From the NCBI RefSeq assembly GCF_018771565.1, contig NZ_CP076326.1:434001-498000 (forward strand): DNA of 64,000 nucleotides, written 5' to 3'. The notes beneath the pieces were generated by a model. It had not been told where the DNA came from. It did no database searches and worked only from the letters and a program-made list of their open reading frames with translations. The stretch is from Thermoflexus hugenholtzii. Lineage in GTDB: Bacteria; Chloroflexota; Anaerolineae; Thermoflexales; Thermoflexaceae. Positions 3,647 to 44,000 of this stretch are shown piece after piece. The number at the start of each line of letters is the position of its first letter. The first letter of the stretch is position 1. Made by a program: the position numbers and the translations under genes.

Positions 3647-3674
3647 GTAGGGCAACTGCGAGCAGTTGCCCTAC
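3647..3674. repeat. 28-base palindrome with GA loop
   Basis: Perfect 13-bp inverted repeat GTAGGGCAACTGC / GCAGTTGCCCTAC around a GA dinucleotide. It matches the central hairpin of the 76-bp elements at 20666-20741 and 32426-32501, except that the GGA/TCC of those stems is GGG/CCC here, a paired change that keeps the stem. The outer arms of the 76-bp element are absent. Confidence 0.75.
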
Positions 3675-3739
3675 ATTCAGGAAAAACTGGAAAGCCCTGC
3701 TCTGCGCCGGATGGGATGGCAGTCGAAATGAATTTCGAG

Positions 3740-4039
3740 CTACAATGGGAAATCGTGGTTATAGAAGTGGCTTCCGCCGCGACCCGCTGGTTCCCATGCG
3801 GCCAGCTCCTCCTCCGGCAGAGGCTCAAAAAAGCACTCCTCCAGGCGGCCGGGCACAAACCCCAGAGGGCGGCGCTCAGGCTCCTCGTAAGGCACCAGGC
3901 GGGCCACCGGGGTGCGGCCTCGAACGATCAGGATGGTCTCTCCACGGCGCACTTCCTCCAGCAGGCGGGAGAGATGGGCCCTGGCCTCTCGGACTGTCAC
4001 CACGCGCATGTTCGAACCCCCAGTCCGCTTTGTCATCAT
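3740..4039 (-). CDS. Phd/YefM-type antitoxin, orphan
   Basis: Small DNA-binding antitoxin of the Phd/YefM family. The core reads MRVVTVREARAHLSRLLEEV followed by RGETILIVRGRTPVARLVP, the usual N-terminal beta-alpha DNA-binding and dimerisation pattern; the C-terminal part is acidic (LPEEELAAWE), as in toxin-binding tails. The start at 4039 (or the next ATG at 4036) is chosen because GGAGGG lies 6 bases upstream; an internal ATG at 4009 would give just the core. No PIN or RelE toxin follows: the downstream side is repeat DNA, and the last residues (GGSHFYNHDFPL) are encoded by a fragment of the 70-bp element (3762-3785), which suggests the gene's 3' end and its partner were lost or replaced. 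Confidence 0.7.
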   Translation of the reverse strand: MMTKRTGGSNMRVVTVREARAHLSRLLEEVRRGETILIVRGRTPVARLVPYEEPERRPLGFVPGRLEECFFEPLPEEELAAWEPAGRGGSHFYNHDFPL

Positions 4040-4194: not shown

Positions 4195-4200
4195 TATAAT
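4195..4200 (+). promoter_or_regulatory. Possible -10 box TATAAT upstream of the array
   Basis: A perfect TATAAT occurs in otherwise GC-rich noncoding DNA. A convincing -35 box is not visible about 17 bases upstream. If used, the transcript would run through the hairpin array towards the TPR gene at 5093, giving a leader or an independent RNA of several hundred bases. Confidence 0.35.
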
Positions 4201-4351: not shown

Positions 4352-5065
4352 AGCCGGCGCAGGCCGGTCGTCGGCCGAAGGCTGTTGCGCCGATTGAAAT
4401 CGGCCTTCTCAGGCGCTTGCGCGCCGGGCGTCGGCCTTCGCCGACGCAAATGGGATCTCCCGGTCGGCGCAGGCCGACCGTCGGCCGAAGGCCCCTGGAG
4501 GCCGAATTCATTCGGCGCACATGCCGACCGCCGGCCGGAGGCCTTCATGCCGATTGAAATCGGCCTTCTTAGGCGCTGCGCGCCAGGCGTCGGCCTTCGC
4601 CGACGCAAAAGGGATCTCCCGGTCGGCGCAGGCCGACCGTGGGCCGGAGGCTGTTGCGCCGATTGAAATCGGCCTTCTTAGGCGCTGCGCGCCAGGCGTC
4701 GGCCTTCGCCGACGCAAAAGGGATCTCCCGGTCGGCGCAGGCCGACCGTGGGCCGGAGGCTGTTGCGCCGATTGAAATCGGCCTTCTCAGGCGCTTGCGC
4801 GCCGGGCGTCGGCCTTTGCCGACGCAAATGGGATCTCCCGGTCGGCGCAGGCCGACCGTGGGCCGGAGGCCCTCGAAGGTCGAATTCATTCGACGCATCG
4901 GGCCGACCGCTGGCTGGAGGCCTTCCCGCCGATTGAAATCGGCCTTCCAAGGCGCTTGCGCGCCGGGCGTCGGCCTTCGCCGACGCAAATGGGATCTCCC
5001 GGTCGGCGCAGGCCGACCGTCGGCCGAAGGCCCTCGAAGGTCGAATTCATTCAACGCGCAGGCGC
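4352..5065 (+). repeat. Tandem array of hairpin units (109 or about 160 bases each)
   Basis: Five head-to-tail units begin at the hairpin GCCGATTGAAATCGGC (cores at 4391, 4551, 4660, 4769, 4930), so spacings are 160, 109, 109 and 161 bases. The basic unit is a string of palindromes: GCCGATT-GA-AATCGGC, GGCGC-TTGC-GCGCC (imperfect in some units), GCGTCGGC-CTTC-GCCGACGC and CGGTCGGC-GCAG-GCCGACCG. The longer units carry an extra module of about 51 bases with GCCGAATTCATTCGGC or GTCGAATTCATTCGAC. Units 2 and 3 are almost identical, implying recent duplication. It ends 27 bases before the TPR start codon. It lacks the unique spacers of a CRISPR array. Confidence 0.9.
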
Positions 5066-5092: not shown

Positions 5093-7489
5093 ATGCAGGA
5101 GATCACGCTTTCCCAGTATAGCGCGGAGATCGAACGCCTGCTCCAGGACGAAGCCTACGATGAGGCCATCGCCCACTGCATGCACATCCTGAAGCGCTAC
5201 CCGAAATACCAGCGGGCCTACCGGCTGCTGGGCCAGGCTTACCTGGAGAAGGGCCAGGATGATGCGGCGATGGACCTCTTCGCCCGGGCCCTGAGCGCGG
5301 ATCCGGAGGATTTCCTCCCCCGCATCGGCCTCAGCGTGATCTACGAGCGCCGCGGGCAAATCGCCGAGGCGGCCTGGCAGATGGAACGGGCCTATGAGCT
5401 GCTCCCTTACAACGAGTTCATCCGGGAGGAGCTGGCCAAACTCTATGCCCGCCGGGACGGAGCCCCGCCGGAGTTCCTGCCCCTCACCCGGGGCGCCCTC
5501 GCCCGCCTCTACGCCCGGGGCCATCTCTACGCCGCCGCCATCGCGGAGCTGGAGAGCCTGCTCCAGGAGGCGCCCCAGCGCGCCGACCTCCGCGTCCTTT
5601 ACCTGGAGGTGCTGTGGCGGGATGGGCGGCGCCTCGAGGCCGCGCGGGTCGCGCAGAGCCTGCTCCAGGAGCTCCCCTATTGCCTGAAGGCGAACCTCAT
5701 CCTGGGTGAGTTCTGGATGGCCAGCGGCCGCGAGGCGGAGGCCCGCGAGCTGTTCCGCCGCGCCGCCGCCGTGGACCCTGAGCTCACTCTGGTCCCGGAT
5801 CTCCTCGGGCCGACGGCCTCGATCCAGCCGGCGGAGGTGCGGATCGAACGCCTGATCTATGTGCCTCCCACCCCGGCCTACGCCCGACCGCCCGTGGAGG
5901 AGGGTGAGGTCCCCGAATGGCTCCAGGCCCTGGGCCTCCCGTTGGGGGAGGAAGTCCCGACCGCACCCGCTACTGAGGAAGCCCCAGCCGCGCCGGAAGC
6001 CCTGAAAGCCGCCCCACCGGAGATCCCCCAAGCCCCATCCCCCGAGCCGGTGGCGGAGACCCTGGAATGGTTGCGATCGGTCGAGGTGACTCCGGCGGAG
6101 CTGGAGGAAGAACCTTCGGGGGCTCCGGAGGAAGTCCCGCCTCCGGAGCTGGAGTTGCCGGAATGGATACCGGAGGAGTTCTCCCTTCCCTCCGAAGCGC
6201 CTTCATGGATGGAAGGACCCGGGGAGGGGGAGGCTGGACCTTCATGGATGGAGGGTCTCTTCCCGCCGGAGATGCCCGCTCCGGTCTCTGAGGCCCCGAG
6301 CGAAGAGGCGCCGCCCGAGATCCCGTGGGAGGCTCCCGGGGAGCTCCCGCCGGCCCTGGAGGAACCGGGAGAGGTCCCGATGGAGAGGCCGGGCGAGGAG
6401 GCTGCGCCGGAGGTCGCCGGCCTGCCGCCGCTGCCGGAGTCACTGAGCCCGGAGGAGGCCCTGGCCTGGCTGGCCCGGATCGCCGAAGGCAAGGAGGAGA
6501 TGCTGCGAGCCCAGGCGCAACAGGAGGCGGAAGCCCGCCTGGCGGAGATCCTGGGCCGTCGGCCGCCGGAAGCTCCCACCCCCCCGCTTCCGACGCCGCC
6601 GGAGGAGATCCCCGAGGCTCCCACCGGTGAGGAGACGCTGGAAGCGGCTCCGGAGGCAGCGTCGGCCGAAGAGGCCGCGCTCCCGGATTGGCTGCTGGCC
6701 CTCAAGCCGCCGGAGGAGGAGATCGCCCCGGCCCTCGAGGAGGAGGAACGCCGGTTCCGAGAGCTCCTGGAGGAGGCGGCCGCCCAGCCCCTGGAGATCC
6801 CGCCGGAGTGGCAGGCGGAGATGGGGATCTTCCCGGAGGCCCTTCCGGAAGCCCCATCCGCGGAGGCGGCCCCGCTCGAAGCGATGCCTCCGGAGGAGAT
6901 CGAGACGCCACCGCTGGAAGGCGTCCTCCCCTTCCCGACGCCGGAGATCGCCCCCGAAGCCGTCGGCGAGGCGCTGCCGGAAGATCTGCAAGCCGAGGAA
7001 GTGTGGGAAGAGAGGGGACCAGCCCCGGAGGCCGTCGAGACAGCGCCCATCTGGGATCTCCTGGCTGTGGATGAGGGCCTCCCGCCGGCCGGGAAGATCC
7101 CGGAGCCCGCCCCCGCTGTGGATCCCCGCTGGCTGGAGCGCCTGCACGCGGTGCCGGTCGCCGAGACCATGGCCGGCGCGCTGCTGGGGGTCCTGGCGGA
7201 TTACGAGGCCCGCCTGAAGGCCCAGCCTCGGGATCACGAGACCCGCCTGGCGATGGCCCGGTTGCTCTTCAACCTGGGCGACACCGCCCGGGCCATCCGG
7301 GAGTATCAGCGCCTGATGCGGGTGGCGGCGATGCGGGAGCGCGTGATCGCCGATCTGGAGCAGGCGGTGCAGCTGCGCCCCGACGAATCCCGCCTGTGGC
7401 AGGCCTTGGGGGATGCCTATCAGGAGGCCGGGAAGCTGCAGAAGGCCCTGGAGGCCTATCGGCGGGCCCTGGCCCATCTGGGTTCGTAG
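5093..7489 (+). CDS. TPR-repeat protein with long acidic, Pro-rich linker
   Basis: A 798-residue scaffold-type protein. Residues about 8-235 form tetratricopeptide repeats (EAIAHCMHILKRYPKYQRAY is typical); about 255-690 is low-complexity Glu/Pro/Ala sequence with recurring short hydrophobic words (EWLQALGLP, LPEWIPEEF, SWMEG); about 695-798 returns to TPR repeats (ALEAYRRALAHLG). TPRs bind other proteins; the partner is unknown. There is no signal peptide or membrane segment, so it is probably cytoplasmic. The ATG follows GGAAGGGGGAACCGG. It lies directly behind the hairpin array, which therefore forms its upstream region. Confidence 0.85.
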   Translation: MQEITLSQYSAEIERLLQDEAYDEAIAHCMHILKRYPKYQRAYRLLGQAYLEKGQDDAAMDLFARALSADPEDFLPRIGLSVIYERRGQIAEAAWQMERAYELLPYNEFIREELAKLYARRDGAPPEFLPLTRGALARLYARGHLYAAAIAELESLLQEAPQRADLRVLYLEVLWRDGRRLEAARVAQSLLQELPYCLKANLILGEFWMASGREAEARELFRRAAAVDPELTLVPDLLGPTASIQPAEVRIERLIYVPPTPAYARPPVEEGEVPEWLQALGLPLGEEVPTAPATEEAPAAPEALKAAPPEIPQAPSPEPVAETLEWLRSVEVTPAELEEEPSGAPEEVPPPELELPEWIPEEFSLPSEAPSWMEGPGEGEAGPSWMEGLFPPEMPAPVSEAPSEEAPPEIPWEAPGELPPALEEPGEVPMERPGEEAAPEVAGLPPLPESLSPEEALAWLARIAEGKEEMLRAQAQQEAEARLAEILGRRPPEAPTPPLPTPPEEIPEAPTGEETLEAAPEAASAEEAALPDWLLALKPPEEEIAPALEEEERRFRELLEEAAAQPLEIPPEWQAEMGIFPEALPEAPSAEAAPLEAMPPEEIETPPLEGVLPFPTPEIAPEAVGEALPEDLQAEEVWEERGPAPEAVETAPIWDLLAVDEGLPPAGKIPEPAPAVDPRWLERLHAVPVAETMAGALLGVLADYEARLKAQPRDHETRLAMARLLFNLGDTARAIREYQRLMRVAAMRERVIADLEQAVQLRPDESRLWQALGDAYQEAGKLQKALEAYRRALAHLGS

Positions 7490-43007: not shown

Positions 43008-44000
43008 CTATGGTTCCTGCGGGATTTCATGGGGTGCGTAGGGGCGGCCGTCGGTGAGCCACCAGACCCCCTGGTCCCGGGCGGCCCGGGCCGCCAGTGG
43101 GTGGATCTCGGGGCCTGCCGCCACGGGGATCACCTCCGCCTCGGGCCGGGCCTTGCGCAGGATCTCCGCCCGCTCGACCGCCCGCTCCACATCGTCGGTG
43201 TCCACCTTTGCGGAGACCTCCACCACCAGGAAGGCCTCGCCGCCGGTGGCCCGGGAGCGGCCCTGGACCAGGACGTCGGCGTCCTCCAGCTCGGCGGCCT
43301 CCTCCGGGGTGAGGCGGCCGGCGGCCTCCGCCTGGCGGAGGAGCGCCTCGCGCGCTTCGGTGGAGAGGATGTGGGGGTCGAGGAGCAGGCGGCGGTAGCG
43401 GCGCGGGCGGGTGCGGTAGCGGTCCTCATGGACCCAGCCCCGGACCAGGCCGTCCAGGTTGTCCACCCGCTGGGCAAGAGCCTGGATGGCCGTGGCCAGC
43501 TCGGCGAAGCGTCGGTCGGTTTCGGCGCGGTATTCGAGGAACTCCTGGCGGTGGGCGGCGAATTCTTCATAGTGGCGGCGCTGGGCCTCGGCGAGTTCGG
43601 CGAAGCGTCGGTCGGTTTCGGCGCGGTATTCGAGGAACTCCTGGCGGTGGGCGGCGAATTCTTCATAGTGGCGGCGCTGGGCCTCGGCCAGCTCGGCGAA
43701 GCGACGATCCACCTCCGCCCGGAAGGCGGCGAAGGCCTCGTCGCGTTGCTGCTGGGCCTGGATGAGGGCCGCCACCGATTCGGTCAGGGCCTGCACGGAC
43801 TGAGCCAGGTCCTGCACCGTGGCCTTCAAGTCCTCGACCGCCCGCTCCACCCGGCCGACCCGCAGGGAGAGCCGGCGCAGGGTCTTGGGGGAATCCAGCA
43901 GCTCCCGGGTGAGCAGGCGCTGGCGCAGGGCCTCCACCCACTCCGGGTGCCGGTCCAGCAGGCGCATCAGGTCGTTGAAATCCCGCACCGTGAACCCCAT
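43008..44000 (-). CDS. Coiled-coil protein with PD-(D/E)XK-like C-terminal domain
   Basis: 330 residues. Residues about 1-55 are a small helical domain, 55-190 a coiled coil with a 32-residue unit (FAELAEAQRRHYEEF, then AAHRQEFLEYRAETDRR) present twice exactly and once in part. The C-terminal domain (about 240-325) has a nuclease-like pattern with FLVVEVSAK, as in DUF3782-type proteins of thermophiles. The DNA repeat is 96 bases long at 43505-43600 and 43601-43696. GAGGAGG precedes the ATG. Confidence 0.8.
   Translation of the reverse strand: MGFTVRDFNDLMRLLDRHPEWVEALRQRLLTRELLDSPKTLRRLSLRVGRVERAVEDLKATVQDLAQSVQALTESVAALIQAQQQRDEAFAAFRAEVDRRFAELAEAQRRHYEEFAAHRQEFLEYRAETDRRFAELAEAQRRHYEEFAAHRQEFLEYRAETDRRFAELATAIQALAQRVDNLDGLVRGWVHEDRYRTRPRRYRRLLLDPHILSTEAREALLRQAEAAGRLTPEEAAELEDADVLVQGRSRATGGEAFLVVEVSAKVDTDDVERAVERAEILRKARPEAEVIPVAAGPEIHPLAARAARDQGVWWLTDGRPYAPHEIPQEP
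43505..43696. repeat. Exact 96-bp tandem duplication within a coiled-coil gene
   Basis: Two copies of a 96-base unit (32 codons) lie head to tail with essentially no differences, followed by a degenerate third start. The multiple-of-three period preserves the frame and the heptad register changes by four residues per unit. Confidence 0.85.

Follow-up and report, generated by a model that had tools for sequence, protein, structure and literature searches.

The hairpin array ahead of a TPR-repeat gene in the DNA analysed here (the window: 64,000 nucleotides, positions 434001–498000 of G000, the single-contig 3.3-Mb genome of a hot-spring Thermoflexus) is very probably a head-to-tail cluster of miniature non-autonomous derivatives, similar to MITEs or REPINs, of an element built on a TnpAY1 transposase of subclass 1.2. 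With less assurance, but still as the better bet, we regard this element as one member of an old cross-phylum class of REP-like elements, in which each subclass 1.2 transposase has its own family of paired double hairpins with conserved loops and freely changing stems, and which grew in Thermoflexus into dozens of tandem arrays that may have a chromosomal or regulatory role. The first-pass annotation of this stretch could not see that a transposase is linked to the array, that the family is genome-wide or that the unit is an inverted double-hairpin pair.

Layout of the array and architecture of its unit

The array had first been described as five head-to-tail units made of strings of perfect palindromes, and both parts of that description were borne out (Table 1). 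The anchor sequence GCCGATTGAAATCGGC marks the start of each of the five numbered units, with spacings of 160, 109, 109 and 161 bp, and TRF reported periods of 109 and 159–161. Between positions 4352 and 5065 we counted 17 non-overlapping perfect palindromes (stem of at least 6, loop of 2–5), whereas dinucleotide shuffles (n = 300) averaged 2.0 and never exceeded 7. Folding z-scores of the array were −10.2 and −11.5 for the two strands.

Table 1 Features of the hairpin array and its surroundings (window coordinates)
Feature	Position	Strand	Details
TATAAT, probable −10 box of TPR gene	4195–4200	+	Context TATAATCGAATTG
Entire hairpin array	4352–5055	+	Order H1-H2-H2'-H1' on + strand
Leading partial unit	4352–4388	+	Diverged H2' hairpin 4352–4369, then B spacer
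Unit 1, 160 bp	4389–4548	+	H1 4389–4404, E 4412–4425, H2 4428–4447, G 4452–4461, H2' 4462–4479, H1' 4501–4516, then remnant of a further half-unit
Unit 2, 109 bp	4549–4657	+	H1 4549–4564, H2 4587–4606, H2' 4621–4638; without H1'
Unit 3, 109 bp	4658–4766	+	H1 4658–4673, H2 4696–4715, H2' 4730–4747; without H1'
Unit 4, 161 bp	4767–4927	+	H1 4767–4782, E 4790–4803, H2 4806–4825, H2' 4840–4857, H1' 4879–4894 = GTCGAATTCATTCGAC (compensated variant), then remnant
Unit 5 and right end	4928–5055	+	H1 4928–4943, H2 4967–4986, H2' 5001–5018, terminal H1' 5040–5055
TPR-repeat gene, downstream of array	5093–7489	+	ATG 37 bases past array end

Across the family, the loops are GA in H1, CTNC in H2, GNAG in H2' and TC in H1'. 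On the plus strand, H1 (GCCGATT GA AATCGGC) is followed by a spacer carrying hairpin E, H2 (GCGTCGGC CTTC GCCGACGC) by linker G and H2' (GGTCGGC GCAG GCCGACC) by spacer B, while H1' reads GCCGAAT TC ATTCGGC. Since H2' and H1' are H2 and H1 inverted, with reverse-complementary loops, the unit joins two double-hairpin half-units in opposite orientation, H1 - spacer - H2 - linker - H2' - H1'. The 109-bp units lack H1', and the extra 51-base module noted earlier in some units is real, consisting of H1' plus the remnant of a further half-unit. In all of the 34 arrays examined the last hairpin is H1', and in most the first is H1, often preceded by a CTTTCRC-like motif. A whole unit can alternatively form one long imperfect hairpin (strong single-strand folding).

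A CRISPR array and a coding repeat, neither of which the first-pass annotation had accepted, were rejected, the former because the units are contiguous and near-identical with no unique spacers between repeats, the latter because the period of 109 is not divisible by three. A known structured RNA was rejected as well: no family in Rfam 15 reached its gathering score, the best overlap being radC with 22.6 bits against 40. Elsewhere in the window, a 96-bp tandem repeat (43494–43703, 2.2 copies, 96% alike) has a period that is a multiple of three and is perhaps coding.

A dispersed family of intergenic arrays

When the array was used as a query, some 35 further arrays were found in G000; a module scan placed the whole family at about 36 arrays (24.9 kb in total, mostly intergenic), and the core 16-mer gave 86 matches with at most one mismatch. 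The search for units elsewhere in the genome, proposed at first pass, was therefore positive. These further arrays contradict an assembly artefact, which was also rejected on the grounds that the sister species G004 also has an array here, one whose internal units differ. Genes predicted from codon usage by an ad hoc caller were absent from 31 of 35 arrays; of the remaining four, three overlap such a gene and one surrounds a transposase gene. Flanking genes were arranged ++ in 11 cases, -- in 10, divergently in 9 and convergently in 4, and arrays have no fixed orientation to genes. Twelve arrays lie on the plus and 23 on the minus strand, and no replication-strand bias was found: orientation was independent of the replichores, as delimited from the position of dnaA (1.838 Mb), and GC skew was weak. 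Essentially no such repeats are present in G005.

Three options had been put forward for the array, namely a structured RNA, a cruciform-rich DNA site and a repeat element expanding in tandem. The last is the one supported here, by the many arrays in G000, the tie to a transposase, the absence of the array in four congeners and the difference in its length between sister species; the other two are rivals. Chromosome-structure sites (cruciforms or protein-binding clusters, cf. BIMEs), maintained for the shape of their DNA, would fit some three dozen intergenic clusters at sites conserved between sister species, as well as the strong single-strand folds. However, array orientation does not depend on the replichore, the site of the present array is empty in four congeners and G005 does almost entirely without the repeats, leaving this reading only a slim chance.

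A second, GTAG-tagged type of palindrome (e.g. GTAGGGCAACTGC-GA-GCAGTTGCCCTAC, tagged at both ends) was seen in the window at 3647–3674, 3724–3743, about 20681 and 32459, and recurs in other stretches of G000.

A subclass 1.2 transposase gene inside the largest array

The largest array in G000 (1826932–1829066) contains a PF01797 gene at 1827672–1828010 (144-aa ORF). A tnpA gene is also enclosed by arrays in G008 (Ca. T. japonica HRbin22) and G003 (Thermoflexus sp. SKYG36), with one copy of this kind in each of the three genomes. The protein carries the motifs YIQRQKEHH (the Y---Q--HH signature), WQ and DHLH in 144 aa, and retains both HUH histidines, Tyr115 and Gln119. It passes the IS200 model NF033573 (58.3 bits, cut-off 55), fails the RAYT model NCBIfam NF047646 (25.4 bits, cut-off 80) and matches IS200/IS605 transposases of known structure; its SKYG36 relative has the predicted fold of the ISDra2/IS608 transposases (mean pLDDT 91). 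Assigned by motifs alone, it is a predicted Y1 (HUH) transposase of TnpAY1 subclass 1.2, a group defined by Y---Q--HH, W-Q and HUH motifs, a length of about 148 aa and no extra domain (PMC6006769). In 2018, this subclass was described as IS200-like proteins without IS properties or known function (PMC6006769).

Multiple near-identical gene copies moving as a unit, as in an IS, are absent: tnpA is single in G000, and across the class the subclass 1.2-type gene mostly gave 1–3 matches per genome. No tnpA of this kind was found in the draft genomes G001, G002, G004 and G006 despite their arrays or related repeats; as these are drafts, loss in array-bearing congeners is indistinguishable from an assembly gap. 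The tnpA-holding array lies about 10 kb from dnaA (1838122; G000 1826932–1838598), possibly near the replication origin.

The array unit corresponds to the pair of ends found on tnpA-bearing elements in many taxa (H1-spacer-H2 - tnpA - H2'-spacer'-H1'), minus tnpA. In Thermoflexus itself the gene is placed between whole units and not between H2 and H2', which makes a simple deletion origin less clear there. The dispersed arrays resemble MITEs in sharing hairpins and stem variants with the tnpA locus without having the gene, and resemble REPs and REPINs in being dispersed, mostly intergenic inverted pairs with a cognate tnpA flanked by the repeats. In the two Thermoflexus genomes that allowed the comparison, stem variants common to the dispersed arrays and those around the local tnpA were GGTCGGC and GCCGAAT in G000, and GGCCGGC and GTCGAAT in G008. 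Comparison of the sequences identifies these as pairing-preserving double changes spread through each genome. Stem pairing was counted inside arrays only, given background hits throughout a genome of 69% GC; counted in this way, genuine double changes within the genus were few, and conserved pairing is therefore argued chiefly from whole stems that differ between genomes.

The RAYT of the same genome as an internal control

G000 also encodes a true RAYT (304772–305101; NF047646, 121 bits against the cut-off of 80), which raises the question of whether the arrays are ordinary REPs owned by this classical enzyme. The RAYT, however, is flanked by a distinct GTAG-tagged repeat, GTAGGAGCGGCTTCAGCCGC, and lies in no hairpin array, and the protein that does lie within an array falls far below the RAYT cut-off, as given above. 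We consider ownership by the RAYT scarcely credible. Two Y1 proteins thus share one genome, each with its own repeat family. The GA/TC loop alone is not specific, being used by the GTAG REPs of G000 too; the distinctive part of the unit is the CTNC/GNAG hairpin.

Hairpins around the transposase gene in two phyla

A scan of bacterial genomes yielded a set of 80 loci from Chloroflexota, Cyanobacteria and others. In a separate first sample of 27 class-mates outside the genus, hairpin density was 10.4 per kb within 350 bp of the gene and 1.7 beyond 700 bp; in the 80-locus set, near and far densities were 9.6 and 1.7 per kb in Chloroflexota, and 9.5 and 1.4 in Cyanobacteria. Loops of the GA/TC, CTNC and GNAG types made up 166 of 246 hairpins near tnpA versus 18 of 178 away from it in Chloroflexota (Fisher p = 1e-34), and 139/249 versus 16/168 in Cyanobacteria (p = 1e-23), these p values being only nominal because the loci are related. 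Stems varied widely, with 21–28 distinct stems per loop class in the 27-class-mate sample. The conservation of stems in relatives, suggested as a check at first pass, accordingly took the form of hairpins kept across unrelated stem sequences.

The order of the hairpins was recurrent too. The nearest labelled hairpin was H2 upstream of tnpA in 45 of 73 loci and H2' downstream in 39 of 71, and inverted repeats of at least 35 bp flanked the gene in 51 of 80; a locus in Abditibacteriaceae (L199) has a perfect 63-bp inverted pair, H1-spacer-H2 ... H2'-spacer'-H1'. Two nucleotides from H1, the tetramer CTAC (GTAG on the other strand) was present in 36 of 62 cyanobacterial half-units, while in other taxa CAAC (GTTG) was the commonest tetramer beside H1 (29/110). 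It has been lost in Thermoflexus, whose units have no GT[AG]G foot of the canonical REP/REPIN kind. These clusters of shared-loop hairpins around the gene in Chloroflexota and Cyanobacteria contradict the statement of Quentin et al. (2018) that subclass 1.2 is without REP repeats and generally without terminal structures (PMC6006769).

A search for units by exact pattern gave four hits in Planktothrix and none in Calothrix, which establishes no high copy number for Cyanobacteria. In Lyngbya sp. CCAP 1446/10 (L256), tandem hairpin units border tnpA on each side, and there is a 265-bp inverted repeat of 77% identity; this locus is a cyanobacterial case of array growth. Another locus (L127, G198 C199:1043-2394) has two subclass 1.2 tnpA genes in tandem, 947 bp apart and with equal match scores, each between hairpins, as if the element in its entirety had undergone a head-to-tail duplication.

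Site polymorphism and the leader of the TPR gene

Eight of nine array loci examined in G004 lie at array sites of G000, with flanks mostly 93–97% identical, indicating that recent jumping is rare. Arrays at shared sites are mostly unequal in length (e.g. 386 versus 667 bp at the site of the present array). This site is filled in G000, G004 and G006 and array-free in G001, G003, G005 and G008, where the TPR orthologue has TATAATCAAATCG immediately ahead of its ribosome-binding region; from this, the array apparently occupies the 5' leader of the TPR gene, past the probable promoter and before the start codon. The TATAAT reported about 150 bases upstream of the array is present, and from its sequence context is probably the promoter of the TPR gene itself, in which case transcription may run through the array as a 5' leader. 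The upstream gene neighbourhood is unlike between filled and empty genomes, so the difference need not reflect one clean insertion. For the same reason we do not rely on a 9-bp repeat, CGACCCGGA, found on both sides of the insert, as a target duplication, which it could be.

This position, between a conserved TATAAT and a start codon, together with very stable folds and compensated stem changes, would suit functional structured RNAs, i.e. hairpin leaders or tails setting the stability or translation of neighbouring mRNAs, with the transposase accounting for their origin only. Against that stand the occurrence of arrays in all gene contexts without fixed orientation to genes, congeners that manage without the array at this site, its freely varying length, hairpins that track tnpA across phyla and the lack of any Rfam match at its cut-off. 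We judge an RNA function of this kind unlikely, and retain miniature derivatives of the subclass 1.2 element as the preferred explanation.

Proposed mechanism and implications

Comparing sequences, we infer that the units are mobilised by their cognate TnpA. The enzyme would act on single-stranded DNA, probably at replication forks, where it would read conserved loops and folds, would cut adjacent to H1 and H1', guided by the GTAG/GTTG-like tetramer where it is kept, and would insert copies into intergenic sites or beside existing copies, after which recombination or slippage could lengthen and shorten the arrays. Insertion between the TPR promoter and start codon would create a structured leader, likely as a side effect. 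For some REPs, measurements have shown recognition that depends on the loop, tolerates stem changes and uses a GTAG-type guide (PMC8266576), and a similar mode is supposed here for that reason.

Candidate hairpin substrates in at least two phyla give subclass 1.2 proteins a testable role. They add a REP-like system of a different architecture, with double-hairpin half-units, and offer natural sequence data on the features that such an enzyme reads, which would be the loops and not the stems. They also explain both the conspicuous Thermoflexus repeats and the hairpin motif beside tnpA in filamentous cyanobacteria.

Comparison with known systems

The closest parallels are the REP/REPIN (BIME)-RAYT systems, or REPtrons (PMC6006769, PMC8266576, PMC3116915), which share a single-copy Y1 HUH gene with flanking hairpin repeats that are also dispersed between genes, an inverted pair as the basic unit, a separate repeat family for each tnpA and, in many taxa of the subclass 1.2 set, a GTAG-like tetramer 2 nt from H1. 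Unlike REPtrons, the present elements have two hairpins per half-unit with a CTNC/GNAG loop in H2, and a transposase of subclass 1.2 (Y---Q--HH) instead of class 2 (Y---NP); in Thermoflexus the tetramer is missing and units follow one another head to tail.

TnpAY1 class 3 (PMC6006769) is similar in its class 1-related Y motif and in the several atypical hairpins beside the gene; these reach high copy number (about 600 in Solibacter usitatus), and the loci are described as similar to both IS and REPtrons (PMC6006769). Class 3 proteins, however, have a greater length (median 178 aa) and carry NHVH and YV..EQ motifs, and their hairpins have a CnGA foot, whereas the Thermoflexus protein has DHLH and YIQRQKEHH in its 144 aa. 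The IS200/IS605 elements (IS608, ISDra2) share the transposase fold, catalytic residues and hairpin ends, but occur in multiple copies and have a single subterminal hairpin at each end, whereas here there are usually one or two tnpA per genome, several hairpins on each side and ends made of inverted double hairpins.

In TIRtrons (TIRYT; Di Nocera et al. 2013, PMC3733652), a tyrosine transposase gene likewise lies in long inverted repeats, some doubly palindromic, that form repeat families; TIRYT proteins mostly belong to subclass 2.1 with a C-terminal HTH (PMC6006769), not to subclass 1.2. Our literature search found no paper tying repeats such as those described here to subclass 1.2. Two REP families from the same phyla, GTAG-23 of Thermomicrobium roseum and GTAG-12 of filamentous cyanobacteria (PMC3733652), were compared by description. 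GTAG-23 forms large clustered blocks and sits within a second palindrome (PMC3733652), and for neither family was a link to subclass 1.2 reported (PMC3733652). On the same descriptive comparison, the cyanobacterial half-unit may have been partly seen earlier as GTAG-12 (PMC3733652).
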